Source of the DNA: Caldisericales bacterium
Lineage (GTDB): Bacteria > Caldisericota > Caldisericia > JAAYUI01
DNA length: 64,000 bases
Assembly: GCA_012517765.1 (NCBI GenBank)
Contig: JAAYUI010000008.1
Span: 1 to 64,000 of the forward strand
Direction: 5' to 3'
Shown one piece after another: positions 297-27,266 of the stretch; within the stretch, counting starts at the first letter, position 1; the number at the start of each line of letters is the position of its first letter. Both the position numbers and the translations under genes were made by a program. Under the pieces are notes generated by a model that saw nothing but the letters and a program-made list of their open reading frames with translations, made no database searches and had not been told where the DNA came from.

Positions 297-3200
297 ATGA
301 GGAAGTTTTTTGCTCTTTTTCTTGCACTGGTTTTTGCCCTTGCGATACCCGCCGTTTATGGTCTTCCACAAGCTGGAGCGGTCCCCTTTACTGTTTTGAA
401 AAATACAATCTGGTCGGGAACAGTCATCATGCCAGAGGGTTTTTATATAGCCCCTGATGCCACATTGACACTGATGCCAGGCACAGTGGTCAAGCTGGGT
501 GGCAATATTGGCGTAAAAGGCAGGATAAAAGCCATCGGAACCCAAAACGAACCGGTCATCTTCACGTCCCTCAAGGATGACGTAAAGGAAGACTCGAACA
601 AGGATGGTAACTCATCAAGACCATCACCAGGTGACTGGGGCAACATCGAATTCCCGGACAATTGTGGCATCTGCGAGCTTTACCAGGTGCATTTCCTATA
701 CGGTGGCAAAGGCGGTTTCGGGACACTCAAATTTTCATCCGGAAAAGGCTCTGACGACAGAATAAGGATTTCCCACTGCACAATATCCAGATCGGCTTCA
801 ATGGGTGCATGGTTTGCAAATTCCACATCAGTACTCAGAGAATGCGTTATAACCGATTGCCAGGACCCAAAGACAGGCGCAGGTATCTGGATACAGGAAG
901 ATTCAAACCCATCAATCTCCGGCTGCACAGTTGAAAGGTGCACCATTGGCATCCAGATCGATCTTTCCTGCTCGCCAAAACTCCTTGGAAACATCATAAA
1001 AAACTGCGGTACAAACGGGATAAAGGTTATCACAGGTTCCCTGGACAAAGAAGTAGTCTGGGACGCCTCTATGCCCTATGTTTTTGACAAGTTTGTAATC
1101 AGCAGCAAAGGGTTCCTCAGGATACAGCCAGGCGTCATTGTAAAAAGTACCGGCCAACTCGGGGTCTCTGGTCGTCTGGAAATCAGGGGAACCGCAGAAA
1201 AACCAGTCATTTTCACATCTCTTACCGATGACAGTGTTGGCGGTGACACAAACAATGACCAGGACAAAACTGCGCCACAGCCGGGTGACTGGGGTGGAAT
1301 CGAGTTCACTGGCGAAGCCGGAGCATGCACGATAACACACACAAAATTTTCATGGGGTGGTGGCCAGGCTGAAAAAGGTGGCGGTTACGCCATCCTGAAG
1401 TTTGGTGCCGCAGGCGGCGTCGACAACAGGGTCAAACTGTACAATTGCACTGTTGAGCATTCGGAAACTGCCGGTCTTTACATGCAGGCATCAAGCCCGA
1501 GCGTCTACAACTGCAAAATAACCGACAACAAGAACGACAAGCTGGGGGCATGTGTCTGGCTCCAGAGCAGGAGCAAGCCAATCCTCTACAACTGCGAGCT
1601 CACAGATTCCGAATGGGCAATATATTGTGACGGGTACTCATACCCAAAATCGCAAAAACTCACCATCTCCGGCAACAAGTACAACAACATCTATTTTGAG
1701 AGCCCACTCCTTGAAGAAGATGCAGTCTGGGGAGCTGATCTTGTCCATTACATCCCAAAAACGGTCGGCATCAAACCAGGCGTGACACTCCACCTCCTCC
1801 CCGGCGTCATCATCAAGTACGGCGAAATGATAAGAGTTGACGGCAAGCTCATAGCAATCGGCACAAAAGACAAACCAATTTATTTCACCTCCTTGAATGA
1901 TGACAGTGTGGGTGGCGACAGCAACGGTGACAGCGGCGCCAAAGATCCGCTCCCCGGCGACAATCAGGGTATACAGCTGACCGAGTCTTTTGGCAGGTCG
2001 GTAATGAAAAATTGCGTTGTAAGGTACGGTGGCTCGGGTGGCAATGGAAACATCTACCTCGGACAGGCAACCAACACAAAAAACGAGCAGATAATTGAAG
2101 ACACCATAATCGAGAAATCGCTTGGTCAAGCAGTGAAAGTAAGGGGTGGTCAGGTCGACCTTATAAGGTGCTCCCTCCTTGACTGCATGAACAAGCAAAA
2201 TGGTTTTGCAATTATTGCAGAAGCAGGCGCAAAGATAAGACTCGTTGACTCACTCATTCAGCGCTGCAGACACCTCTTCAGTATCACCCCTGAAGTCGAG
2301 CTGAAAACGCAAGGCAACACGGCAAAAAACATTGGTGTCGAGCTGGAAGAGAGTTTTGCCGGGATCCACATCTACAAGGGTAGGCTAAGGGAAGACAAGG
2401 TCTGGGATTCTGAATTCCCGTACATCATCGAGGACGACTTCACGATAGACAAGGGGGCCAACCTCACTGTTGCGGCCGGAAACGTCATCAAGGTCGTTAA
2501 GGGCGCCTTCTATGTGAACGGTTCGATGTCCTGCAAGGGAACGCAAAACAATCCTGTCTACATAACATCATTCTCCGACGACACCATTGCTGGTGACACA
2601 AACAACAACGGGCAACTGACAAAACCAATGCCTGGCGATTTTGACGAGATCGAGTTTGAAGGGTCAGTAACGGCATGCACCTTCGAGCACACTGTCATCA
2701 GGTACAGCGGAGGAAAAACCAGGCGCATGGGCTCGGTCAAATTTGGTGCATTCGCCGGTGTTGACGGAAGGGTAAAATTCATCAACTGCACCATAGAAAA
2801 CAGTAACAGTGCCGGCCTCTACATGATAAATTCTTCACCCTACATAAAAGACTGCATCATCAGGAATTGCAAAACCACCGACAGGGGCCATGGCATCTAC
2901 CTCACCGGCAAATGCAACCCGGAGATTCAGGGTGTCACATTCCAGGACTGCGACTATGCAGTCTACAACAACATGCAGGGAACAGAGGTTGTTCTCGGAA
3001 ACTGCTACTTTGGCGATGTGTCAGGACCAAAAGATGAAACAGGCAACCCGAATGGAAACGGTCTAAAGGTGTTTGGTCCAGTCAATTACAACCCGTTCGC
3101 ACAGGAGCCAAACCCGACAGGCGGAGCAGGCGGAAAGGGTGGAGAACTGCCACCGTACAAGAGGCCGGAAGTCAGCTTCCCGTCGCCAACAGGTGCTGCA

Positions 3201-4349
3201 GTCCTTCTTTCCGTTGATCCCACTTTTGTAGAGCTAAATGTTGGCGAAACTTTCGAGATAACAGCCAGCGATGGAACTGCACCCTACAAATTCGTCTCGA
3301 TGGACGAGAAGGTCTGCAAGATGGTTTCCCAGAATTTCAACAAAGCCACATTCACCTTGACAGGGCCTGAGGCAACAACCATAAGGGTAATGGACAATGG
3401 CGACCAGGAAGTGCAAGTCTGGGTCGTCTCGAAGAACTTCCAGCTGCCAAAACTGCCACTTATTGTCAATCCTGCGGCGCTCCCCATAAAGGTTGGCACA
3501 ACAGGGACAATCCTTGCCAGCACCGATGAAACCATAAAAGCAACACTGACACCAGGTAAATCGGCAATCGTCAAAAATATTGATGACAATGAGGTTTTGG
3601 TCTACGCATTTGCACGCGGTGAAGAATTGTTGACAATCACCTCGCCATCAGGCGAAACTGCGACCTGCAAACTGTTCTGTTTTGCCGATGATGGACCAGA
3701 GTCCCAGTCAATTTACGATTTCCATGCAATACCCGGAACAAAATCTGCAAGGCTGGTCTGGAAACTTCCAAATGTCCAGCGTGACTCTTTCAAAGGACTT
3801 TCAGTAACTCTGGATGGAAAAAAACTCACCGAGCTTGGCCCCGATGCTGCATCACTGCAGGTAACAGGTCTTGCAACTGGCGTAACATACAAATTCGAGA
3901 TTGTCCCGCAAGGGGGCCAGAAGGTTGCGGCATCATGCACGACTGGCCCACTGGATGTCAAGCTCGAGCTCTGGATTGGAAAAACCGATGCCTACATAAA
4001 TGGCAAAAAAACCAAACTGGCCGTCCCTCCGCAAATCCTTTCAAACAGCACCTATGTGCCGTTCCGCTTCCTGGGAGAGGCATTCGGAGCCGATGTTGGC
4101 TGGGACAACTCAAAAAGGGAGGCCTCATTCTGGACACCAAATGCCTTCCTGCAAATGACTGTGGGTTCCAAAGTAGGCTACAATTTTGGCGCGCAAGTGA
4201 CGATAAATCCTCCGCCACAAAACATATCCGGAAGAGTGGTTATCCCACTCAGAGCGGCATCCGAGCTCCTGGGTGCAAAAGTGGCCTACGAAGCAAAAAC
4301 AAAAAAGATTACAATCAACTACAGGAAACCATGGCATCTCTGGTGGTAA
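297..4349 (+). CDS. Secreted right-handed beta-helix protein with C-terminal stalk domain
   Basis: A 1350-residue exported protein with an N-terminal signal peptide (MRKFF followed by a hydrophobic run ending near residue 22). The body is four tandem modules of about 220 residues, beginning near residues 40, 250, 490 and 710. Each opens with a W-x(n)-P-Y-like linker and a GVTLTLLPGVxIK-like strand, then a GTxxxPVxFTSLxDD motif with an Asp/Asn-rich GGDTNxD loop and PGDW. The Cys-rich parallel beta-helix rungs (NCTIExS type) follow. After a Pro/Gly linker (about 955) come Ig-like segments and a fibronectin-III-like segment (about 1140-1230). A copper-amine-oxidase-N-like stalk domain (VPFRFLGEAFGADVGWD, then IPLRAASELLGAKV) forms the end. 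The role is probably a surface or extracellular carbohydrate-binding or adhesive protein; the Asp loops may bind calcium (inference). The start is fixed by AAAGGAGG six bases upstream. Confidence 0.88.
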   Translation: MRKFFALFLALVFALAIPAVYGLPQAGAVPFTVLKNTIWSGTVIMPEGFYIAPDATLTLMPGTVVKLGGNIGVKGRIKAIGTQNEPVIFTSLKDDVKEDSNKDGNSSRPSPGDWGNIEFPDNCGICELYQVHFLYGGKGGFGTLKFSSGKGSDDRIRISHCTISRSASMGAWFANSTSVLRECVITDCQDPKTGAGIWIQEDSNPSISGCTVERCTIGIQIDLSCSPKLLGNIIKNCGTNGIKVITGSLDKEVVWDASMPYVFDKFVISSKGFLRIQPGVIVKSTGQLGVSGRLEIRGTAEKPVIFTSLTDDSVGGDTNNDQDKTAPQPGDWGGIEFTGEAGACTITHTKFSWGGGQAEKGGGYAILKFGAAGGVDNRVKLYNCTVEHSETAGLYMQASSPSVYNCKITDNKNDKLGACVWLQSRSKPILYNCELTDSEWAIYCDGYSYPKSQKLTISGNKYNNIYFESPLLEEDAVWGADLVHYIPKTVGIKPGVTLHLLPGVIIKYGEMIRVDGKLIAIGTKDKPIYFTSLNDDSVGGDSNGDSGAKDPLPGDNQGIQLTESFGRSVMKNCVVRYGGSGGNGNIYLGQATNTKNEQIIEDTIIEKSLGQAVKVRGGQVDLIRCSLLDCMNKQNGFAIIAEAGAKIRLVDSLIQRCRHLFSITPEVELKTQGNTAKNIGVELEESFAGIHIYKGRLREDKVWDSEFPYIIEDDFTIDKGANLTVAAGNVIKVVKGAFYVNGSMSCKGTQNNPVYITSFSDDTIAGDTNNNGQLTKPMPGDFDEIEFEGSVTACTFEHTVIRYSGGKTRRMGSVKFGAFAGVDGRVKFINCTIENSNSAGLYMINSSPYIKDCIIRNCKTTDRGHGIYLTGKCNPEIQGVTFQDCDYAVYNNMQGTEVVLGNCYFGDVSGPKDETGNPNGNGLKVFGPVNYNPFAQEPNPTGGAGGKGGELPPYKRPEVSFPSPTGAAVLLSVDPTFVELNVGETFEITASDGTAPYKFVSMDEKVCKMVSQNFNKATFTLTGPEATTIRVMDNGDQEVQVWVVSKNFQLPKLPLIVNPAALPIKVGTTGTILASTDETIKATLTPGKSAIVKNIDDNEVLVYAFARGEELLTITSPSGETATCKLFCFADDGPESQSIYDFHAIPGTKSARLVWKLPNVQRDSFKGLSVTLDGKKLTELGPDAASLQVTGLATGVTYKFEIVPQGGQKVAASCTTGPLDVKLELWIGKTDAYINGKKTKLAVPPQILSNSTYVPFRFLGEAFGADVGWDNSKREASFWTPNAFLQMTVGSKVGYNFGAQVTINPPPQNISGRVVIPLRAASELLGAKVAYEAKTKKITINYRKPWHLWW

Positions 4350-4370
4350 ATACACTATAAGGAGGCAAAA

Positions 4371-5039
4371 ATGCTGCTGGGCAAAGGCCAGATTATGGTC
4401 ATCGACGACTCAAAACCGATACTTGAAGTCGTCACGGCGATGCTTGAGGGTGCAGGATATGAAGTAAGGCAATTCCTCAGGGCAAGGGATGCACTCATGG
4501 ACCTTATCAATGGCAATCCCGACCTCATTATTTGCGACATACTCATGCCAGAGATGGACGGTTTTGAATTCAGGAGGGCGCTCGTCGAAGACCAGCGCAC
4601 CTCGCACATTCCATTTCTTCTTTTGACAGGGAAGGATGACCTTATGCTGATGATCGAAGGTCTCTCGGCTGGAATCCAGGACTACATCATGAAGCCGATA
4701 CAGCCCAAAGAGTTCCTGACCCATGTTGGAAGGATAATGGACAACATCTACGAAGCCAGGTTCAAACTGCTGGACAGGGTCCTCATTGAGGGAACGCTCG
4801 ACAACATCGAATTTGAAAAAATAGAAAAAGTGCTTGATGCAATAAAATTCACCGGGAAGCTGGTTCTTGGCTCGGAAACAAGAGAGCCACTTAACATTGC
4901 ATACAAAAGGGGCAGGGCGATAGCTGCAGAGGGTGGCCCGATGGCCGCAAAAGGGCACGAGGCATACAGGACCGCTCCGACAATGTCCGGTGAATTCGAG
5001 ATAATAGCAGAACCTGTAGACAAAAAACCTGAATTCTGA
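4371..5039 (+). CDS. Response regulator with C-terminal DUF4388-like domain
   Basis: A 222-residue cytoplasmic protein. Residues 4-125 are a CheY-like receiver: the acidic pair is in MVIDDS, the phospho-acceptor Asp lies in IICDILMPEMDGF (about residue 56) and the Lys in IMKPIQP. The C-terminal 85 residues (GTLDNIEFEKIEKVLDAI, a GKLVL strand, then a YKRGRAIAAEGG segment) resemble DUF4388 (PatA-N-like), a domain linked to gliding, twitching and signalling proteins rather than DNA binding. It follows the beta-helix gene by 21 bases with its own AAGGAGG site and precedes a terminator, so the two are probably one transcript. No cognate kinase is adjacent. Receiver assignment is firm; the C-terminal domain is by pattern only. 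Confidence 0.85.
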   Translation: MLLGKGQIMVIDDSKPILEVVTAMLEGAGYEVRQFLRARDALMDLINGNPDLIICDILMPEMDGFEFRRALVEDQRTSHIPFLLLTGKDDLMLMIEGLSAGIQDYIMKPIQPKEFLTHVGRIMDNIYEARFKLLDRVLIEGTLDNIEFEKIEKVLDAIKFTGKLVLGSETREPLNIAYKRGRAIAAEGGPMAAKGHEAYRTAPTMSGEFEIIAEPVDKKPEF

Positions 5040-5060
5040 TCAAGATTTTAATAGAAGCCA

Positions 5061-5090
5061 AAAAGCCCCGATTTATCGGGGCTTTTTTTA
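5061..5090. terminator. Bidirectional intrinsic terminator
   Basis: Perfect stem GCCCCGA/TCGGGGC (5065-5071 and 5076-5082, loop ttta) flanked by A-run and T-run. It can terminate the response regulator gene on the plus strand and copA on the minus strand. Confidence 0.9.
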
Positions 5091-7385
5091 TTTTGCAGTT
5101 GTGATTTTGAACAGTTTTAGTCTTAGCGCATTCATGACAACAGTTATTGATGAAGCGGCCATGGCCGCTGAGGCAATCATGGGATTTAGCTGTATCCCGA
5201 CGGGATAGAGAACGCCCGCTGCAACAGGAATGGCAAGTGTGTTGTAGATAAAGGCCCAGAAGAGGTTCCACTGGATATTTTTCTTCGTCGCCCTGGCCAG
5301 TCTCACAGTCTGGGGAACAAGCAGTAAATTCTCGTTCATTATGGTTACATCAGCGGTGTCCAGCGCCATGCCCGTTCCCTGCCTTGGTGCAAATGATGCA
5401 TCGGCCATTGCCAGCGCAGCAGCATCATTGACGCCGTCACCCATCATGGCCACAAAACCATCGGCCCTCAGCGCTTCAACGATCTGTACCTTTTCCTCTG
5501 GGAGAGTTTGCGAATAAACCCTCTTTATGCCTAACTGGGACGCCACAGACTCACAAACTTCTTTACGGTCTCCAGAAACCAGAACAGGTTCAATACCTAA
5601 ATCAATCAGCTCTTTCATGGCCTGGAAGGCCTCCGGTCTCAAGGGATCAGAAAGTCCAAAACCACCAATTATCTTGTTGTCCAGCGACACATAAAATGCG
5701 GCTTCTTCAGGCCTAAATGTACCCAATAATACAAGTGGAATTTTCAGCCCAAGTTTTTCCACCATCCTTGGCCCGCCAACAACCAGCTCGCGGCCGGCAA
5801 AGGTCGCCTTTACACCAAGTCCAGGCACAGCCTCAAAGCTTTGCGGGCTTTCTATTGGGATGCTCCTTGAAATAGCAAGATTTTTTATGGCCTGGGCAAG
5901 TGTATGCTCGGAGCCAGATTCGGCCATTGCTGTCAATTTTATTAGTTCGTTCTCAGAGACCGATTCCGAATGGATAGATGTCACTTCCGGTCTGCCGGCT
6001 GTCAGGGTGCCTGTTTTGTCAAAAACAAACGTTTTGACCTCTTCAAGCGCCTCTAGCGACCTGGCATTTTTAATGAGCATCCCGGATTTTGCCGAGATAC
6101 CCAAAGCTATGGAAATTGATGTGGGAGTGGCAAGCCCAAGCGCACATGGGCAAGAAATGACAAGCACAGAAATTGCAGAATTGATGCCAATATTTGTGAA
6201 ACCAAGGAGAAACCACACTACAAAAGCTGTGACTGAAATTGTTATCGAGGTAGGCACAAAAACAGAGGCAATCCTGTCAACAAGCCCCTGTATTTTTGGC
6301 TTTGTCTGTATCGCGGCCCCAATTAGTTCGATGACCCTTGAAAGGACAGTGCTCTCGCCAACCTTGTCACACTTTGCTTCCACAAGCCCGAACCCGTTGA
6401 TTGCTCCAGCATAAACACTGTCACCAGCGCTAACCGGCACAGGCATGCTCTCTCCAGTTATATGGGCATTGTTGAATTCGGATGTACCCCTCACAATAGT
6501 GCAATCTGCAGGTGCTCTTTCAGTGGCCTTGATTTGCACGATGTCGCCTGCTGCAAGCTCTGATATTGGAACATCCTCCACAACGCCATCTTTGATTCTG
6601 TGGGCCTTTTCGGGAAGAAGGGATGCAACATCAAATATCTCCTTCATGGCCGACAATTCAGCTCTGCCCCTGAGGTAGTTTCCAAGCAGAACAAGCATCA
6701 CAATGACAACAGAGCCATCCAGATAGAGCTGGTGCTCACCAATTCCGGGATAAAGGATGGCGACTATCGAATAGACAAAAGAGGCCAGCACTCCAAGTGC
6801 GACAAGCGTGTTCATGTCTGTTTGCCTGTGGAGGGCAATCTTCCAGGCAGAAATGAAGAAATGCCAGCCAGTCCAGAACATTACAGGAACAGCGGCTACA
6901 ACAAGGGTCCATACAAACCACATCGGAAAGTGGTAGAACATCATGAGCATTGTCCCGACTGTGACATAAATGGCAAAAGGAAGCCCGACAAGCAAATTTT
7001 TTCTAATCTTTCTTACATCAGATTCTTTTGCCTGTCTTGCCTGCTTGAGTGCAGAGGCCTGATCGGTGGCCAGTCTTGCACCATATCCGATGTCCGAGAC
7101 TGATTTGACTATGTCACCAATGGCAACTTTCGATGGATCATAGGCGACATCGGCAAGCCCCGTTGAAAAATTGACTCCGATGTTTTTTGTGCCTTCCAAG
7201 TCCTTGAGAGTATTCTCAATATTCAGGGCACAACCAGTGCAATGCATCCCCGTTATTACAAGCTTGGTGCGGACTTCTCCACCCTTTTCCTGGCCACCAG
7301 GGCGAAGCTTTTTGGGAGCAAAAAATATCCACAGCAATACGAGGAAGACGAGTGAAATAACGACAACAAGGACCTGTTGCACCAT
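5088..7385 (-). CDS. copA: Copper-exporting P1B-type ATPase
   Basis: A 765-residue inner-membrane pump that exports Cu(I) using ATP. It has an N-terminal membrane anchor (VVVISLVFLVLLWIFFAPKK) ahead of one heavy-metal-associated domain (GMHCTGC), six to seven further membrane segments, the CPC transport motif (SCPCALGLATP), the phosphorylation site DKTGTLT and the hinge GDGVNDAAAL. The last two helices carry YN and MAASS, the Cu(I) P1B-1 signature. The nucleotide-domain motif is SEHTLAQAI, with Thr replacing the usual Pro of the HP motif. The frame extends upstream to 7652, but AAGGAGGT sits just before ATG at 7385, so that start is chosen. It converges with the response regulator and diverges from an MFS exporter. 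No CopZ or CsoR gene is adjacent. Confidence 0.95.
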   Translation of the reverse strand: MVQQVLVVVISLVFLVLLWIFFAPKKLRPGGQEKGGEVRTKLVITGMHCTGCALNIENTLKDLEGTKNIGVNFSTGLADVAYDPSKVAIGDIVKSVSDIGYGARLATDQASALKQARQAKESDVRKIRKNLLVGLPFAIYVTVGTMLMMFYHFPMWFVWTLVVAAVPVMFWTGWHFFISAWKIALHRQTDMNTLVALGVLASFVYSIVAILYPGIGEHQLYLDGSVVIVMLVLLGNYLRGRAELSAMKEIFDVASLLPEKAHRIKDGVVEDVPISELAAGDIVQIKATERAPADCTIVRGTSEFNNAHITGESMPVPVSAGDSVYAGAINGFGLVEAKCDKVGESTVLSRVIELIGAAIQTKPKIQGLVDRIASVFVPTSITISVTAFVVWFLLGFTNIGINSAISVLVISCPCALGLATPTSISIALGISAKSGMLIKNARSLEALEEVKTFVFDKTGTLTAGRPEVTSIHSESVSENELIKLTAMAESGSEHTLAQAIKNLAISRSIPIESPQSFEAVPGLGVKATFAGRELVVGGPRMVEKLGLKIPLVLLGTFRPEEAAFYVSLDNKIIGGFGLSDPLRPEAFQAMKELIDLGIEPVLVSGDRKEVCESVASQLGIKRVYSQTLPEEKVQIVEALRADGFVAMMGDGVNDAAALAMADASFAPRQGTGMALDTADVTIMNENLLLVPQTVRLARATKKNIQWNLFWAFIYNTLAIPVAAGVLYPVGIQLNPMIASAAMAASSITVVMNALRLKLFKITTAK

Positions 7386-19702: not shown

Positions 19703-20989
19703 ATGTCAGAGAAGGGTTTCAACGCGTTCAAGATGGCCCAGGAGCAGTTTGACAAGGTAGCCGACATGCTTGATCTGGATGAAGGTACCAGGCAGCTTCT
19801 CCGCTTCCCGCAAAGGGAGTATCATGTCCGCATCCCGGTCCGCATGGACGACGGAACAGTAAAAGTTTTCCAAGGTTACAGGGTACAGCACAATGATGCC
19901 CGCGGACCATGCAAGGGCGGAATTCGCTTCCATCCACAAGAAACTGCAGACACAGTAAGGGCACTTGCCACATGGATGACCTGGAAGTGTTCAGTTGTAG
20001 ACATCCCCCTTGGTGGTGGAAAAGGTGGAGTCATCTGCGATCCACACAACCTAAGCATGAGGGAACAGGAACAGATTTGCAGGGGTTGGGTTCGCCAACT
20101 TGCATCAAACATCGGGCCGCTCCAGGATGTCCCGGCACCAGACGTAATGACTAATGGCCAGCACATGCTCTGGATGATGGATGAATATGAGAGGATAGCT
20201 GGAGCCAAATATCCTGGCGTAATCACCGGAAAACCAGTTGGCATGGGCGGATCAAAGGGCAGGACCGAGGCAACAGGTTATGGCGTTGTATACACAATTA
20301 GGGAAGCCCTCAAGCTCATGGGAATTGACCCAAAGAACACGACAGCAGCAGTGCAAGGCTTTGGGAATGTTGCCCAGTATGCTGTTGATCTCTACACTAA
20401 GCTCGGTGGAACAGTCATCTGTGTTTCATGTTGGAACCAGGAAGACCAGACTTCATACACCTTCAAGAAGCCGACAGGCATCAGCCTTGACGAGCTCATG
20501 AAGATCACTGACAGGTTCGGCGGAATCGACAAGAAGAAAGCACAGGACCTCGGTTACCAGGTGCTCCCGGGTGATGCATGGATCGAGCAGGAAGTTGACA
20601 TTCTCCTCCCGGCAGCCATTGAAAACCAGATCACCGGCGAGAACGTAAACAGGATTTCAAAGAAAGTAAAAATCATCGGCGAAGGTGCCAATGGCCCGAC
20701 CACCCCAGAAGCAGACAAGGTCATCCACGAGCGCGGCATTTTCGTGATTCCGGACTTCCTTGCCAACGCCGGCGGAGTCACCTGCTCCTATTTCGAACAA
20801 GTCCAGTGCAACATGAACTACTTCTGGGAGAAAGACGAAGTTCTAAGCAAGCTTGACACCAAGATGACCAGCGCATTCCACGAGGTAGCCTCGCTTGCTT
20901 CCAAGAAGAAAATTTACATGAGGGACGCAGCTTACATGATAGCCATCTCGAGAGTTGCAGAAGCCTGCAGACTCCGTGGCTGGGTGTGA
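19703..20989 (+). CDS. gdhA: Glutamate dehydrogenase
   Basis: A 428-residue hexameric-type Glu/Leu/Phe/Val dehydrogenase that converts glutamate and NAD(P)+ to 2-oxoglutarate and ammonium, or the reverse. The substrate site is clear: GPCKGGIRFHP and IPLGGGKGGVICDP with its catalytic Lys, then PAPDVMTNGQHMLWMMDEY. The dinucleotide-binding fold has the GFGNVAQ glycine loop near residue 215 and IGEGANGPTTPEA later. Length is normal for the family. AAGGAG lies upstream of ATG 19703, with its own promoter and terminator, so it is monocistronic. Coenzyme preference cannot be decided with confidence from the sequence. Confidence 0.96.
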   Translation: MSEKGFNAFKMAQEQFDKVADMLDLDEGTRQLLRFPQREYHVRIPVRMDDGTVKVFQGYRVQHNDARGPCKGGIRFHPQETADTVRALATWMTWKCSVVDIPLGGGKGGVICDPHNLSMREQEQICRGWVRQLASNIGPLQDVPAPDVMTNGQHMLWMMDEYERIAGAKYPGVITGKPVGMGGSKGRTEATGYGVVYTIREALKLMGIDPKNTTAAVQGFGNVAQYAVDLYTKLGGTVICVSCWNQEDQTSYTFKKPTGISLDELMKITDRFGGIDKKKAQDLGYQVLPGDAWIEQEVDILLPAAIENQITGENVNRISKKVKIIGEGANGPTTPEADKVIHERGIFVIPDFLANAGGVTCSYFEQVQCNMNYFWEKDEVLSKLDTKMTSAFHEVASLASKKKIYMRDAAYMIAISRVAEACRLRGWV

Positions 20990-21021
20990 TAGCCTCTCGC
21001 AAACAAGACTCTTTAAGCAGC

Positions 21022-21052
21022 AAAAAGCCGCTCCATCACGGAGCGGCTTTTT
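21022..21052. terminator. Bidirectional intrinsic terminator
   Basis: Perfect 13-base arms (21022-21034 and 21040-21052; core GCCGCTCC/GGAGCGGC, loop atcac) with A and T tails. It serves gdhA on the plus strand and the radical SAM operon on the minus strand. Confidence 0.93.
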
Positions 21053-21066
21053 GATTTCCCAATTTA

Positions 21067-22617
21067 TCAAATGCCTGTGTTGTATTCTGGTGGATCTTTT
21101 ATGTCGCAGATTTTTTTAAGTAACTCTGGGTTTTCCTCATGAAATTTATGGAAGAAAACAATGGCCAGTTCTGTAAGTTTCTTTGATAATTCGCATTCAA
21201 AATGGTGTGGTGTAAATATATCACCGGTGGAAACGAGGTTATGATGAAAACACCCACCAGCACAACTCATTCTTATCCAGCATTTTTTGCATGGCCCTTC
21301 CCTATTTCCACTCCTCTCAATTATCTTCCTGTACATGTCTTCGCTGTATGAACCATCAAGCAAGTTGCCTGCGCTATTTTTCTTGTCACCAACAAACCTG
21401 TGGCACAAATACACGGTTCCCTCAGGAGATATGTCGACATAGCTCCTTCCGGCCCCACAAGGCCATGGGTTGACTTGCCGGCTGTAAAGCATTTGCAGGG
21501 ATTTTATAAACATATTGCTTCTTGGAAGGAGTTGAATACCAGATTCACCATCATAATCGATGTTCTTGGACATCTCTCCCAAGATATTTGTGTAATATGA
21601 ATACAAATCATTAAAACCCTCAACCAGTTTTTGGCAACCTTCCTCTGTGAGAAAATGCTCTCCCATCGTTCCAGTTGCAGGGCTGAGCAGAACATTCCAA
21701 AAACCAGCCTTGTATAAATCCCTGGAAAGCCCCACAAGATCGTAAGATAAAAATGTTGCCCTAGAAGTCATTCTCCTGTTGTATGTCTTCGTCAGCCTCA
21801 TCACTCCATTAATGGTTGCATCATAAGATGGACGGCCATCAGCAAATGGTCTTTGGGTATTCTGCACACCAGGAGGGCCATCGATACTCACCATTGGGTT
21901 GACCCCTAACTCAAAAAGTTTGGCAGCAATTTCTTCTGTCACAAGGGAAGCGTTGGTGGTCATTCCAAAATCAACATTCAGGCCATTTGCCTGGGCAACT
22001 TTCTTTGCATACTCGACAACCTTTGGAATCAAGGCAAAATTCGCCAGTGGCTCTCCACCAAAAAAAGTTATTCCAAAATCTTTATAGCCAGCCCCCATAA
22101 CCCTTTCAATTTGCCAGTCAATGGCCGCTTTTGCGACATCAAACGGCATGTCCATGTCCGGGGTGCCAAAGGAACCACCATCGCCATAGCAATAAATGCA
22201 GTTCAGGTTGCATTTATGGGTGATATTAAGTGCCATAAATTTTGGCGTGAGCTTATCGGGAAGCTTTTTGCTTTTGCTTTGCCAGTCAGGCTCTGCTTCA
22301 GGCTTTTCAGCAGGCAACAGCAATCTGAAACGGGCCATTTCCGTCAAAACCTCAAAGACCGCTTCTTGTCCATACTTGCCCTGAAAAACCTGTTTTATGT
22401 CGCTTACTGTTGTGCCAGCTTTTTCCTTCAGGTAAGATACAACTTCAAGGGTGGGTTCGTCTGCTCCAAAAATAATCTGGGTGCCAACATCAAAAAGCAA
22501 TTTCGACTTCCCGTTTTCCACCAGGTGGGTTTCGGAGGCCCTGACTGACCTGCCCTCAAAATCAGATGGGGGCCAGTTTTGGCCCCCATCATTTACATTT
22601 TGCCCATTCTTGATCAT
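21067..22617 (-). CDS. Radical SAM/SPASM peptide maturase (putative thioether-forming)
   Basis: A 516-residue cytoplasmic enzyme. Residues 30-103 form a small alpha/beta domain like the leader-recognition (RRE/PqqD-like) regions of peptide maturases. The radical SAM triad is C136-x3-C140-x2-C143 in HKCNLNCIYC, with the GGEP motif at 187-190. A complete SPASM set follows: C387, G400-x4-C405, then C443-x2-C446-x5-C452-x3-C456 and C475. This order is the one found in SCIFF/ranthipeptide, QhpD-like and anSME-like maturases. The start overlaps the stop of a Cys-rich peptide gene (ATGA), and a second Cys-rich peptide lies before that, so the likely job is to install Cys thioether bonds in them. Substrate assignment is inference from context. 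A perfect inverted repeat lies in codons 10-18. Confidence 0.9.
   Translation of the reverse strand: MIKNGQNVNDGGQNWPPSDFEGRSVRASETHLVENGKSKLLFDVGTQIIFGADEPTLEVVSYLKEKAGTTVSDIKQVFQGKYGQEAVFEVLTEMARFRLLLPAEKPEAEPDWQSKSKKLPDKLTPKFMALNITHKCNLNCIYCYGDGGSFGTPDMDMPFDVAKAAIDWQIERVMGAGYKDFGITFFGGEPLANFALIPKVVEYAKKVAQANGLNVDFGMTTNASLVTEEIAAKLFELGVNPMVSIDGPPGVQNTQRPFADGRPSYDATINGVMRLTKTYNRRMTSRATFLSYDLVGLSRDLYKAGFWNVLLSPATGTMGEHFLTEEGCQKLVEGFNDLYSYYTNILGEMSKNIDYDGESGIQLLPRSNMFIKSLQMLYSRQVNPWPCGAGRSYVDISPEGTVYLCHRFVGDKKNSAGNLLDGSYSEDMYRKIIERSGNREGPCKKCWIRMSCAGGCFHHNLVSTGDIFTPHHFECELSKKLTELAIVFFHKFHEENPELLKKICDIKDPPEYNTGI
22565..22590 (-). promoter_or_regulatory. Perfect inverted repeat in the first codons of the radical SAM gene
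   Basis: GATGGGGGCCA (22565-22575) and TGGCCCCCATC (22580-22590) are perfect 11-base arms around a four-base loop. On the transcribed strand the hairpin is followed by TGATTTTGAG, a short U-rich stretch. It could act as an attenuator or block ribosomes, lowering maturase relative to peptide expression. Confidence 0.5.
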
Positions 22618-22988
22618 ATAGCTGTGATATCATCGACCCTTGTCGGGAATGGGCCACAAAAAGACGCATCAGAAACAAGATTGTTCCCAGAGGTACGGCA
22701 TGCAATGTCGTTGAATTGGGAGCAAGGGATATCAGATTTTATATTACTGCATCCTTCAAGGTCAGCTCCACCACCTGCTTTTGTGTCACGACAGACACAC
22801 ATGTCAAAAGTAAGATTACAACCACTACTGTCATTAAAGCGGCAGTAATCATTCCTGAGGCAATAGTGATCACTCATTAGAGTATCCTTAAATCCATCAA
22901 TACCGCACCAGTCGATAATGCAACTGTTAAATAACATCTCAGCATATGAAGTAAAGATATTCAACGGCTTTATATGTTTATTTTGCAC
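22614..22988 (-). CDS. Cys/Asp-rich candidate precursor peptide B
   Basis: A 124-residue protein with 11 cysteines and no membrane segment or signal peptide. Chosen start is GTG at 22988 because GGAGGT ends four bases before it; the frame is open to ATG codons at 23000 and 23024. From this start it reads M-Q-N then KHIKPLNIF, matching the M-KHIVPLNLI start of peptide A. In both, ten residues separate PLN from N-x-C, the first cysteine. Three D-x-C motifs occur: CIIDWC, CLRNDYC (a C-x3-D unit) and CNLTFDMC, plus CSNIKSDIPC, which mirrors CSGTSVDKPC in peptide A. It is the likely substrate of the radical SAM gene that overlaps it by four bases. A metal-binding protein is the main alternative. 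Confidence 0.75.
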   Translation of the reverse strand: MQNKHIKPLNIFTSYAEMLFNSCIIDWCGIDGFKDTLMSDHYCLRNDYCRFNDSSGCNLTFDMCVCRDTKAGGGADLEGCSNIKSDIPCSQFNDIACRTSGNNLVSDASFCGPFPTRVDDITAI

Positions 22989-23013
22989 GTTTACCTCCAT
23001 TGTTATTTTGGGG

Positions 23014-23403
23014 TCAATCTGCATATTCGGTTATTCCGATCTTAACATGGCAAGCTTCTTTATTGGTGCACCCACCAGGACAATCACCTGCATCAAATTG
23101 CTTGCATTGATCTTTTTGGAAGCAATCTGAGATATCAATACTTTCACAATAATCCATAGAATAACAAGGTTTGTCCACTGATGTGCCAGAGCACCAGTCC
23201 ATACCTGCAGCATTACACGTGTCTATATCACAGCTCCATTGCGATGTGTCACTGCATTTGCAGGCAAAGCAGTCGCCACTGCCCATAGTAGAAAACAGAA
23301 CTGGGCAACCATCCATTTTGCATGGATCATCAAGTGCCCCGCACATGTTTGGGGACACCCCGCCTGAAAAACCAATCAGGTTTAAAGGCACTATGTGTTT
23401 CAT
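23014..23403 (-). CDS. Cys/Asp-rich candidate precursor peptide A
   Basis: A 129-residue protein with 16 cysteines (positions 21, 28, 33, 45, 48, 50, 58, 63, 71, 80, 86, 94, 100, 108, 112, 118), all after a 20-residue Cys-free leader beginning MKHIVPLN. Six D-x-C motifs occur (D26, D31, D61, D69, D84, D98), among them the C-x3-D units CYSMD and CFQKD. Such Cys-to-Asp spacings are known thioether sites in QhpD- and PapB-type chemistry, so the peptide is probably multiply crosslinked; this is inference. A strong GGAGGG site lies seven bases before ATG 23403. It follows the propeller gene by 18 bases and overlaps the upstream part of the peptide B frame. It lacks ferredoxin or zinc-ribbon spacing. 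Confidence 0.78.
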   Translation of the reverse strand: MKHIVPLNLIGFSGGVSPNMCGALDDPCKMDGCPVLFSTMGSGDCFACKCSDTSQWSCDIDTCNAAGMDWCSGTSVDKPCYSMDYCESIDISDCFQKDQCKQFDAGDCPGGCTNKEACHVKIGITEYAD

Positions 23404-23421
23404 TTAATCCCCCTCCCCTTT

Positions 23422-24696
23422 TTATGGATTCAGCTTGGCGCCGGCCACCTCGTCATAATTGTTGCGGTAATCGTCCCATACGGCAATATTGCCTTTGATA
23501 ACGGGAAGGACCTGGTCACCACTCTGATTGCACAAGACAAACTCGGAGCTCCCGGAAATGGAGTAGCCATATATGTCAATCGCTGTTGTTGACGCATTTC
23601 TCTCGTCTTGCCACACCACCCAGTTGCCATTGATTTGGGGCGGGCCCTTTATCGAGATTTGGGTGTCTATGTACGAGCCATTGCAAGGCACAAGCGGAGG
23701 GGAAGGCGGCATTGGATATAAACCTATCCTTGCTGGTGCCATAAGGTTTGAGCAAACACTGGCATGGCATACGGCATAGAGCCCGCTTATCCTTGGATAT
23801 ATCGTCGTTACTCCAACCTGGTTATCAACAATCACCTCTGACGAAGTTGGAATGTAGTAACCATAAATATCCCCCTTGTCGTGGTCAGTATCGGAGTTTT
23901 CATAATCATTGCGGTGTTCTTCCCACACAATGTAATTTCCATCGACGTCAGGATAGTATTGCTCCGCCTGGTTTGTGCATACCGCAAAACCTGTACTAGT
24001 TGAAAGGTTGAAGGCATATATGTCCGGATTGTTGTTTCTGAAATCAACCCAAACCACCATTTGGCCATCACTTTCAGGCACGCCAAAAACCTGTGAGTTG
24101 AGCGAGCCATCTCTTACAGTGATGGTCTGGGAGGTTGTAAGGTTGTAGGCATAGATTGCATCGGTGCCAGGATTGTGCTCTTTCCAGATGACATAATTGC
24201 CGGCAATTTTGGGCATTACCTCCAGGCCTTGCCTGTTTGATATGGTTGATGATGTTTGTGTCTGGCGATTGTAAAGGACTATGTCCCAGGAATCAATGGA
24301 AGCGATGGATTTATTTGCAAAAACAATATAATTGTCGTTTATGTCTGGATAGCACTCTGTTTTATTCGCATCAGACGAAATTGTGCTCGTGGTGCTGGCA
24401 TCAACATCATACATTTTTATATCATTATTTGTGTCATCACCGCTCGCCCGCGTTGAAAAAACAACCTTGTTGCCAGCTATACTGGGATAAAATTCTTTGT
24501 ATGTGTCGCTCAATATAAAGGGTGTAACTGTAGTTGTTTTTAAATCAGGCTTTATTTCATCAACATCCTGGAATTTGGCCACTGCCGCCGAGGTGGTATT
24601 CTTCGGGCCAAAAACTATTCCGGTTACAAGAGCAATCGCAATTACAGGCAAAATCAGCAGTATCAACAAAAGATATTTCTTTTTGTATCTCTCCAT
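23422..24696 (-). CDS. Membrane-anchored TolB-like beta-propeller protein
   Basis: A 424-residue protein with one N-terminal membrane segment (basic MERYKKKY then a hydrophobic run to about residue 29) and no cleavage-type lipobox, so it is probably anchored with the rest outside the cytoplasm. Seven to eight blades repeat the pattern YPxIxGNxVVWxDxRN-x(n)-DIYxYxL, as in TolB/DUF5050-like propellers: EFYPSIAGNKVVF, ECYPDINDNYIVF, YYPDVDGNYIVWEEHR, PPQINGNWVVWQDERN. It is the first gene of the radical SAM operon, with GAGGAGGAG before its ATG. It may bind or display the modified peptides; quinohemoprotein amine dehydrogenase also pairs a propeller subunit with a thioether-crosslinked small subunit, an analogy only. 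Confidence 0.8.
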   Translation of the reverse strand: MERYKKKYLLLILLILPVIAIALVTGIVFGPKNTTSAAVAKFQDVDEIKPDLKTTTVTPFILSDTYKEFYPSIAGNKVVFSTRASGDDTNNDIKMYDVDASTTSTISSDANKTECYPDINDNYIVFANKSIASIDSWDIVLYNRQTQTSSTISNRQGLEVMPKIAGNYVIWKEHNPGTDAIYAYNLTTSQTITVRDGSLNSQVFGVPESDGQMVVWVDFRNNNPDIYAFNLSTSTGFAVCTNQAEQYYPDVDGNYIVWEEHRNDYENSDTDHDKGDIYGYYIPTSSEVIVDNQVGVTTIYPRISGLYAVCHASVCSNLMAPARIGLYPMPPSPPLVPCNGSYIDTQISIKGPPQINGNWVVWQDERNASTTAIDIYGYSISGSSEFVLCNQSGDQVLPVIKGNIAVWDDYRNNYDEVAGAKLNP

Positions 24697-24725
24697 ATCT
24701 CCTCCTCAAATTGAATTGTGTCTTG

Positions 24726-24756
24726 ATAATAATCAATTCCCCCCCCCTATTGTCAA
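24726..24756 (-). promoter_or_regulatory. Promoter of the radical SAM/Cys-peptide operon with a nine-G spacer tract
   Basis: On the minus strand TTGACA (24751-24756) is followed by a 19-base spacer containing nine consecutive G (24739-24747) and then TATTAT (24726-24731), about 30 bases before the propeller start codon. GATTAT at 24729-24734 gives an alternative 16-base spacing. Homopolymer tracts between promoter boxes are the classic basis of phase variation. Confidence 0.65.
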
Positions 24757-24923
24757 CTGGGCAAACTGAAAAACCAAACCGTCTAAAATATTGATGGTTT
24801 AACAAGAAAATGGGAGTCACCCAACTCATTAAATATAATTATATTGTCATATTTTTTCGGGTTTTTTTCATATACCTCATGGGAATCATTGCCAAAAAAA
24901 GACAAAAAAGATAAAATGTCTCC

Positions 24924-27266
24924 ATGCCGGAAAGAAAACCAGAGTGGCAGGTAATCATTGACCTCCTGAGGGCAACGGACTCAAGGGAGCTCAATCGCAT
25001 CTCAAGGAAGCTGCTCAACAGGCTGGTGAGGATGGAAGCCAGTGGAGCAACCGATTTGCTGGAGCGTTTTGACCAGGCTTACATGAACACAAGGGGCGAC
25101 GAGAACCAGCCATCGCAAAAAACAAACCTCAGGGAAATTGAGGCAATCTTTGAAGAGACATTCAAAATAGCCAAGACATGCCTTAGCGAAGACGAGCTTT
25201 CATCGCTCATCATGAAATGGGTGTCAGAGGGGAGAACAAGGTTCCTGACCCTTGCAACAGAAAAACAGGGTATCTCGCTCTTTGAAATAACTGAAAACCT
25301 CAATCGTTTCTGCATGTTGCCAGAAAACGAAAGGCTGCTTTCCGAAGCCGAGGAAAATGGCATAAGGGTTTCACTGATCAGGAGATTCCTGACAGATAGC
25401 CCCCAATTCATCAACGTTGCAAAAAGATATATCAGGATTGGCGACATTTCAAAGATGATCCAGAAGTCCATCGGCCCGGCCGGCGGAACTGGGAGGCTGG
25501 GAGGTAAAGGCGCAGGCCTTTTCCTTGCACAAAGAATAATAGAAGAAGCGCAGAAGAAATATCCAGTCCTGCAAAATGTCAGGGTACCCAAAACATGGTA
25601 TCTCCTATCTGATGGGATACTTGATTTTCTGCACTACAACGCGCTTGAAGAAATCATAAACCTCAAATACAGGACACTTGACGAAATCAGGCAGGAGTAC
25701 TCCTATTTCCAGCAGGTCTTCAAACAGTCACAGTTTTCATCCGAAATCATGCAGGGTCTTAGCCTGGCACTTGACGATCTGGAGGGAAAACCGATAATAG
25801 TGCGCTCCTCAAGCCTTCTTGAGGACAGTTTTGGGGCAGCATTCTCAGGCAAATACAAGAGCCTTTTCCTTGCCAACAAGGGGACCAAAAGACAGAGAAT
25901 GGAGGCCCTCATGGATGCGGTCGCCGAGGTCTATGCTTCCACCTTCAGCCCGGATGCCATCCAGTACCGTATCGAGCGCGATTTGCTGGACTTCCAGGAG
26001 CAGATGGGCTGCCTGATACAGGAGGTGGTCGGGGCCGAGGTTGATGCAAGATTTTACATGCCAACTTTTGCCGGTGTGGCCTTCTCAAACAATGAATTTA
26101 GGTGGTCTCCAAGGATAAAAAGAAGAGACGGTGTCATAAGGCTGGTGGCTGGGCTCGGGACAAGGGCAGTAGACAGGGTTGGCGATGATTATCCGATGCT
26201 CATTGCGCCAGGACAGCCAAATCTCAGGGTCAACACAAATCCCGAGGACATTCTTAGATACAGCCAGAAACACATTGATGTCATAGATCTCCACGAGCTT
26301 AATTTCAAGACGCTTGTGTTCAACGAGCTCCTGCACGAACATGGCAATGAATACCCGGGTTTGACAAGGCTTGTACAGGTCTATGATCATGGCCAGCTCC
26401 TTCCGCCTTCGGTGGCAAGCTTTGATCCAAAAAAATCAGACCTGCTGATAACTTTCGACAACCTTCTAACCAGAACACCTTTTGTGGAGCAAATAAGGTT
26501 GCTCCTGCAAATACTCTCCGAAGCGCTTTGCGTCCCTGTGGATATAGAATTTGCTTCAAACGGACTGCATCTCTATGTCCTCCAGTGCAGGCCGCAGGCA
26601 CAACCAAGAGACAGGGCGAATATCAGCATTCCAGATGATGTGCCCGATGAAAGCAAGATCTTTACAGCCCACAAGTATGTCAGTGATGGCTTTGTGGAGG
26701 CAAAATACATCGTATATGTCGATCCTGCCGAGTACGATGCCCTTGAAACCGCCGAGGAAATGACAGATATTGCAAGGGTCATCAGCGCAATAAATTCAAC
26801 CCTGCCAAAAAACAGCTTCATCTTGATGGGGCCAGGGCGATGGGGAAGCAGGGGGGACATAAAGCTTGGCGTCAGAGTGACATACAGCGATATCAACAGG
26901 TCATCGGCACTTATCGAGATCGCAAGAAACAAGGGTGGGTATGTACCGGAAGTGAGCTTTGGAACACACTTCTTCCAGGACCTTGTCGAAACAGGCATTT
27001 ATTACCTCCCATTGTACCCTGACGACAAAAGTGTCATATTCAATGAGGAATTCCTGAAGACCAGCCCCAACATGCTCCCAAAATACGTCTCCTGGGCCGA
27101 AAAATATGAAAGGGTCGTGCGCCTGATTGATGTCTCAGAAATCACAGGGGGCAAAATCATAAGGCTGATAATGGACGGTGATGCAGGGAAAGCCCTGGCG
27201 TACCTTTACAATCCGGACGAAGTGCCAGGCGAGGAAGAATGGGAAGCGCCACCATGCAAGAAATAG
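24924..27266 (+). CDS. PEP synthase-like ATP-grasp (PPDK N-terminal domain) protein
   Basis: A 780-residue protein. The first 170 residues are helical and unassigned. The rest matches the nucleotide-binding N-terminal domain of pyruvate phosphate dikinase/PEP synthase: LGGKGAGLFLAQRI near residue 191, IIVRSSSLLEDSFG with AAFSGKYKSLF near 291-311, and MGCLIQEVVG. The swivelling phospho-His domain and the C-terminal PEP-binding barrel of true PEP synthase are absent, so it is not a complete PEP synthase and probably phosphorylates or binds another partner. A C-terminal region (ILMGPGRWGSRG near residue 633) is shared with other such stand-alone proteins. No ribosome binding site is obvious at ATG 24924. 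Confidence 0.8.
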   Translation: MPERKPEWQVIIDLLRATDSRELNRISRKLLNRLVRMEASGATDLLERFDQAYMNTRGDENQPSQKTNLREIEAIFEETFKIAKTCLSEDELSSLIMKWVSEGRTRFLTLATEKQGISLFEITENLNRFCMLPENERLLSEAEENGIRVSLIRRFLTDSPQFINVAKRYIRIGDISKMIQKSIGPAGGTGRLGGKGAGLFLAQRIIEEAQKKYPVLQNVRVPKTWYLLSDGILDFLHYNALEEIINLKYRTLDEIRQEYSYFQQVFKQSQFSSEIMQGLSLALDDLEGKPIIVRSSSLLEDSFGAAFSGKYKSLFLANKGTKRQRMEALMDAVAEVYASTFSPDAIQYRIERDLLDFQEQMGCLIQEVVGAEVDARFYMPTFAGVAFSNNEFRWSPRIKRRDGVIRLVAGLGTRAVDRVGDDYPMLIAPGQPNLRVNTNPEDILRYSQKHIDVIDLHELNFKTLVFNELLHEHGNEYPGLTRLVQVYDHGQLLPPSVASFDPKKSDLLITFDNLLTRTPFVEQIRLLLQILSEALCVPVDIEFASNGLHLYVLQCRPQAQPRDRANISIPDDVPDESKIFTAHKYVSDGFVEAKYIVYVDPAEYDALETAEEMTDIARVISAINSTLPKNSFILMGPGRWGSRGDIKLGVRVTYSDINRSSALIEIARNKGGYVPEVSFGTHFFQDLVETGIYYLPLYPDDKSVIFNEEFLKTSPNMLPKYVSWAEKYERVVRLIDVSEITGGKIIRLIMDGDAGKALAYLYNPDEVPGEEEWEAPPCKK

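Follow-up and report, generated by a model that had tools for sequence, protein, structure and literature searches.

A membrane-anchored propeller, two cysteine-rich small proteins and a radical SAM/SPASM maturase in one operon of a Caldisericales bacterium

Introduction

Radical SAM enzymes install thioethers that are familiar mostly from small natural products; the clear known case in which such bonds hold a protein subunit together is quinohemoprotein amine dehydrogenase (QHNDH). Among the maturases concerned, QhpD forms Cys-Asp/Glu bonds (PMC9413430, PMC11002830) and the leader of its substrate QhpC is required for binding to QhpD (PMC7876137). PapB cross-links the Cys-X3-Asp/Glu motif (PMC9413430), and QhpD, PapB and SCIFF enzymes all form non-alpha thioethers (PMC11002830). 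Here we describe a four-gene cassette within a 64,000-nucleotide stretch of DNA (the window; positions 1 to 64,000 of contig JAAYUI010000008.1, assembly GCA_012517765.1) from a Caldisericales bacterium. It encodes a beta-propeller protein, two small Cys-rich proteins (peptides A and B) and a radical SAM/SPASM maturase. Our reading, in which we place about even confidence, is that these are two QhpC-like small proteins cross-linked from Cys to Asp/Glu, as in ranthipeptides, and that they cooperate with the propeller on the cell surface. An earlier note on this DNA had seen in it a system resembling ribosomally synthesized and post-translationally modified peptides (RiPPs), with a propeller, two precursor-like peptides and a maturase, and our results support that description. 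The recurrence of the architecture and the QhpC-like leader motif are additions to it.

Results and Discussion

The cassette is one minus-strand operon (24696-21067) with the open reading frames of propeller, peptide A, peptide B and maturase in this order, as was claimed earlier (Table 1). The claims of tight packing and of 16 and 11 cysteines in the two small proteins also proved correct: the gaps are 18 bp between propeller and peptide A and 25 bp between the peptides, with B counted from its GTG, while peptide B and the maturase overlap by 4 bp (ATGA).

The radical SAM triad of the maturase, C136/C140/C143 (CX3CX2C), and seven cysteines of its SPASM region (C387, C405, C443, C446, C452, C456 and C475) are invariant in an alignment of 33 sequences, in accordance with the complete cysteine set read before from the sequence, and the protein is above the cut-offs of PF04055 and PF13186. 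No curated maturase family reached its cut-off in the NCBIfam/Pfam profile search. The best family score was that of the Nif11 model TIGR04064 (261.5 bits, cut-off 518.7), followed by the QhpD equivalog TIGR03906 (241.3 bits, cut-off 453), the PapB model NF047865 (216 bits, cut-off 340) and the SCIFF model TIGR03974 (213.4 bits, cut-off 425). Neither peptide A nor B matched any NCBIfam or Pfam family, which agrees with the opinion of the earlier note that the combination fits no named class. The relatives it had suggested, SCIFF, QhpD and PapB, were right in kind by score (213-241 bits), but Nif11 scores best and a 32-row tree excludes SCIFF: the maturase branches apart from the SCIFF clade (support 100/100), in a QhpD/Nif11/PapB-like group, as sister to Nif11 (94/82). 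The predicted structure (pLDDT 77.6) has CteB (5wgg) as its best PDB match, with TM-scores of 0.73/0.84. At the N-terminus, about residues 24-102, a RiPP recognition element (RRE)-like domain is predicted, modelled as four strands, three helices and a final strand (pLDDT about 83-94); the phmmer alignment to CteB begins at residue 39.

The number of cysteines alone is no proof that the peptides are real genes, since Cys-rich reading frames arise by chance here, mainly antisense to genes, and antisense frames in the window also attain 13-14 Cys within 126-141 aa. We take the peptides as real because of the operon packing, ribosome-binding sites, a common N-terminus and enrichment of Cys-X3-Asp/Glu. 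The GTG of peptide B at 22988 is preceded by GGAGG a few nucleotides upstream; the alternative ATG at 23024 would give a protein of 136 aa overlapping peptide A. Both peptides have KHI[VK]PLN at or near the N-terminus (6 of 7 positions identical, about 1e-5 in simulation), and outside this motif they are only weakly similar. The motif recalls QhpC leaders of several proteobacteria (MKHLTPAN, MKHLKPAN, MRHLKPLN, MKHLKPIN, MSELKPTN), to which MKHIVPLN and NKHIKPLN of the window are identical in 4-5 of 7 positions, a short match. Cys-X3-Asp/Glu occurs seven times in peptide A (C21, C48, C80, C86, C94, C100 and C112) and, as Cys-X3-Asp, at C43, C49 and C64 of peptide B. In both peptides together Asp or Glu stands at +4 from 10 of the 27 cysteines, against 4.2 expected (p 0.0014 for this spacing, named beforehand). 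No paralogue of peptide A was found in its own genome, and its matches in plasmids were weak ones to transposases and nothing else.

The propeller scores 134.6 bits with the TIGR04275 repeat model (cut-off 85) in seven stretches. Its single-sequence structure prediction, of low confidence (pLDDT 46), has a helix at residues 2-28 followed by repeated strands, and this helix is the predicted membrane anchor, which bears out the anchored propeller of the earlier note. Paralogues within the same genome are about 33% identical or less.

At least two further propeller/Cys-peptide/SPASM cassettes with the same gene order, C217 and C75, were found in the same genome, and in all three of its Cys-peptide/maturase sets found the propeller lies immediately upstream on the same strand. 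Counting its orthologues (L201, L203 and L204), the C217 cassette occurs in each of the four species of the genus that were searched, always with both peptides, whose order is swapped in one species. The C217 peptides have 15 Cys each, all 30 of them invariant across the four species, with nonsynonymous far below synonymous divergence (dN<<dS) in pairs where dS could be estimated. They have M[KN]WI[IV][KN]P in common, which follows the same logic as KHIxPLN. The C217 maturase is nearest to Clo7bot/TIGR04463 models and the C75 enzyme is TIGR04463-like, both below cut-off; the C75 gene is cut near the contig end and its remainder is probably at the end of C56. As the maturases of the recurring cassettes belong to different subfamilies, the pairing of propeller and peptide looks functional. 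Within this genus the propeller is thus tied to Cys-peptide/maturase sets whose maturases belong to different groups, and this recurring layout points to a surface system of a kind not yet described.

Of the exact cassette there is a single instance in the genomes, plasmids and viral contigs searched. Among the matches listed for genome contigs no maturase homologue exceeded 33% identity. Those in plasmids and phages were all below 60%, the best listed being about 29%, and viral contigs held no relative. The closest relatives in 399 Bacillota genomes and in 399 genomes from the phylum of an alphaproteobacterium were only 32-35% identical, and the maturase was not found in three sister genomes of the genus, which are 69-90% complete. 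Homologous loci with both peptides, a check proposed earlier, were not found for this cassette, but the analogous C217 keeps peptides and maturase together in its four species. Among openly licensed papers none was found on a propeller combined with a Cys-peptide and a radical SAM enzyme.

Comparison with known systems

The QHNDH operon (QhpC/QhpD/QhpB) resembles the cassette in several respects: a QhpD-group maturase with an RRE-like N-terminus, a small Cys/Asp-rich substrate and a larger partner subunit encoded alongside. The N-terminal KHLxPxN leader of QhpC may have its counterpart in KHIxPLN. Unlike QHNDH, the four genes, flanked by glutamate dehydrogenase (GDH) and PPDK_N-domain genes, include no heme alpha subunit and no QhpE, QhpF or QhpG. 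The cassette also has two peptides, which belong to no Pfam/NCBIfam family and carry 16 and 11 Cys where QhpC has 4, and its propeller is of the TIGR04275 type. Identity with QHNDH was rejected for the missing alpha subunit and a QhpD score far below cut-off. As separate observations, two QhpD-group radical SAM genes elsewhere (L035 and L103) stand beside a FAD halogenase-like gene and beside further genes that seem to be LodA/GoxA-like. A QHNDH-like locus of a Bacillota genome (L146, G253) has an alpha-subunit-like gene and a YVTN-type propeller (both assigned by eye) and a PapB/QhpD-like radical SAM gene of 316 bits, just under the PapB cut-off of 340; no QhpC was recognized there.

With the ranthipeptide system PapA/PapB (freyrasin) the cassette has in common several Cys-X3-Asp/Glu motifs in line (C80-D104 of peptide A). 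It differs in having two peptides of about 125 aa together with a propeller, and PapB membership was rejected on score. CteB, the closest solved structure, is a SCIFF enzyme, and SCIFF-type maturases are also present in the majority of the genomes searched in the phylum, but the window peptides have no SCIFF core; score, tree and peptides led us to reject SCIFF membership. The Nif11-like maturases, best by score and sister in the tree, were likewise rejected, as only half of their cut-off was reached and the peptides are not Nif11-like, matching no NCBIfam model. The Clo7bot/TIGR04463/Cys-every-fifth systems are nearest to the C217 and C75 maturases, all below cut-off, while the window maturase falls in a different one. 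We know of no propeller in these Cys-rich peptide systems.

Proposed mechanism and alternative explanations

In the proposed mechanism the RRE-like domain would recognize the N-terminal KHIxPLN of both peptides, and the maturase would link Cys sulfur to the beta or gamma carbon of Asp/Glu within them, at many places in Cys-X3-Asp/Glu, giving thioethers of ranthipeptide or QhpC type. The final product would be the stapled proteins themselves and not a small natural product that is secreted, and they would act at the surface with the co-encoded anchored propeller; the cross-linked gamma subunit of QHNDH, which sits with a separate beta subunit, offers a parallel. The maturase probably staples both small proteins by sulfur-carbon bonds. 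We infer the type of bond, leader removal, the export route and the association with the propeller. The thioether reading is supported by the QhpD/Nif11/PapB-like nature of the maturase, its model nearest to CteB, the QhpC-like leaders and the enriched Cys-X3-Asp/Glu. The recurring gene order of C75 and C217 and the conserved C217 peptides also count in favor of the proposal as a whole.

Several results weigh against this mechanism. The enrichment at +4 is moderate, being 0.06 for Asp once all 21 offsets are counted, and 17 of the 27 cysteines have no Asp/Glu there. The match to QhpC leaders is short (a 5/7 identity has a chance of about 8e-4), and the peptides lack the K-A that follows the motif in QhpC. 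The branch of the maturase is very long (2.54 changes per site), which makes its exact place unsure. The four genes include no export system or protease, and the propeller of the C75 type can stand alone, since its orthologue in the sister genome G002 (L168) has neither peptide nor maturase.

The cassette could also be a classical RiPP natural-product cluster, in which the peptides are precursors from which an exported signal or antimicrobial is made and the propeller serves as receptor, immunity protein or surface-binding partner. Such clusters typically show two tandem precursor-like peptides with short leader-like N-termini next to a SPASM maturase, and a cassette carried by one member of the genus out of four fits a mobile trait. 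We nevertheless find this somewhat unlikely, as the peptides are long (about 125 aa), have Cys throughout and show no evident cleavage site, of GG type or otherwise. The four genes also include neither a transporter nor a protease or immunity gene, and between species the C217 peptides show strong conservation, unlike fast-diverging toxins. A modification of another kind, with free cysteines binding metal or forming disulfides, seems improbable to us. SPASM enzymes with RRE domains catalyze sactionine (alpha-carbon) thioethers, epimerization and cyclophanes, any of which would be compatible with a maturase below every characterized family cut-off and with the cysteines that have no acidic residue at +4. 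On the other side, QhpD, PapB and SCIFF, which are among the nearest scored families, form non-alpha thioethers, and Asp is abundant in the peptides and enriched at +4.

The least probable explanation, in our view very unlikely, is a chance neighborhood in which the propeller, just one among the many surface propellers of the genus, is unrelated to peptides and maturase. Most of the several TIGR04275-like propellers in this genome have no radical SAM neighbor, nor have propellers elsewhere in the phylum within the fetched flanks, and the stand-alone orthologue of the C75 propeller is of the same tendency. But the propeller is upstream in three sets of one genome, at 18 bp in the window, and C217 retains it in four of four species. 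Given about 8 propeller genes in a total of roughly 2,700 (estimated from genome size), three coincidences are unlikely.

Genomic setting and regulatory elements

Contamination of the contig was ruled out, as other genomes of the genus have the flanking genes at about 96% identity. What lies between the GDH terminator and the PPDK promoter varies across the genus: the sister species G002 has a MarR-like gene and two ABC transporter genes there, in G004 the interval is empty and measures about 240 bp, and the window genome has this cassette. GC content at third codon positions is lower in the cassette (0.37-0.49 vs 0.57-0.60). The variable interval, the lower GC and the absence of the maturase from the three sister genomes suggest gain by transfer, with loss in sister species as the alternative.

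A single promoter and terminator had been proposed for the operon. The terminator hairpin stands; it is likely ancestral to GDH and probably predates the cassette, because a similar hairpin follows GDH in a sister species (L028). A single promoter is not demonstrable, as promoter-like sites of this kind number 8 against 7.9 expected, no more than by chance. The 11-bp hairpin at the start of the maturase gene (z = -1.58 in 101-nt context) is a possible tuner of expression, lowering maturase output relative to the peptides.

Table 1. Positions of the cassette genes, regulatory elements and compared loci.
Feature	Position	Strand	Remarks
GDH gene	19703-20989	+	flank on maturase side
Terminator hairpin, bidirectional	21023..21053	both	GDH/maturase intergenic; z = -4.8
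Radical SAM/SPASM peptide maturase	21067..22617	-	516 aa; predicted RRE-like N-terminal domain; profile scores, invariant Cys, model
Perfect 11-bp GC-rich hairpin	22565..22590	-	first ~20 maturase codons, just past peptide B stop
Peptide B	22614..22988	-	124 aa, 11 Cys, 14 Asp; MQNKHIKPLN; GTG start favored
Peptide A	23014..23403	-	129 aa, 16 Cys, 16 Asp; MKHIVPLN; AGGGGAGGGGG upstream of ATG
Beta-propeller protein, predicted membrane-anchored	23422..24696	-	424 aa, first operon gene; TIGR04275 repeats, predicted N-terminal helix
Promoter-like TTGACA-16-GATTAT	24729..24756	-	33 nt before propeller start
PPDK_N-domain gene	24924-27266	+	flank on propeller side
GDH-PPDK interval, window	20990-24923
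GDH-PPDK interval, L028	1213-6241
GDH-PPDK interval, L031	about 2930-3170
C217 cassette, L163 (G000:C217)	2365-5685	-	propeller, two tandem Cys-rich peptides, SPASM maturase
C75 cassette, L155 (G000:C75)	4299-7010		propeller, 105-aa Cys-containing peptide, radical SAM enzyme
Probable rest of C75 enzyme, L167 (G000:C56)	2469-2942
QhpD-group radical SAM gene, L035	3962-5308
QhpD-group radical SAM gene, L103	5806-7113
QHNDH-like locus, L146	1001-5213

Conclusions

Taken more broadly, these cassettes could represent a new surface assembly that joins an anchored propeller to one or two Cys-rich small proteins stapled by an enzyme, structural subunits and not natural products, in which the module is kept while the maturase swaps between distant SPASM subfamilies. 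We offer this tentatively, as a doubtful though conceivable extension. If true, stapling would be extended to a general means by which anaerobes build robust extracellular proteins, and the cassettes would be a source of new maturases for long substrates with many Cys-X3-Asp sites.

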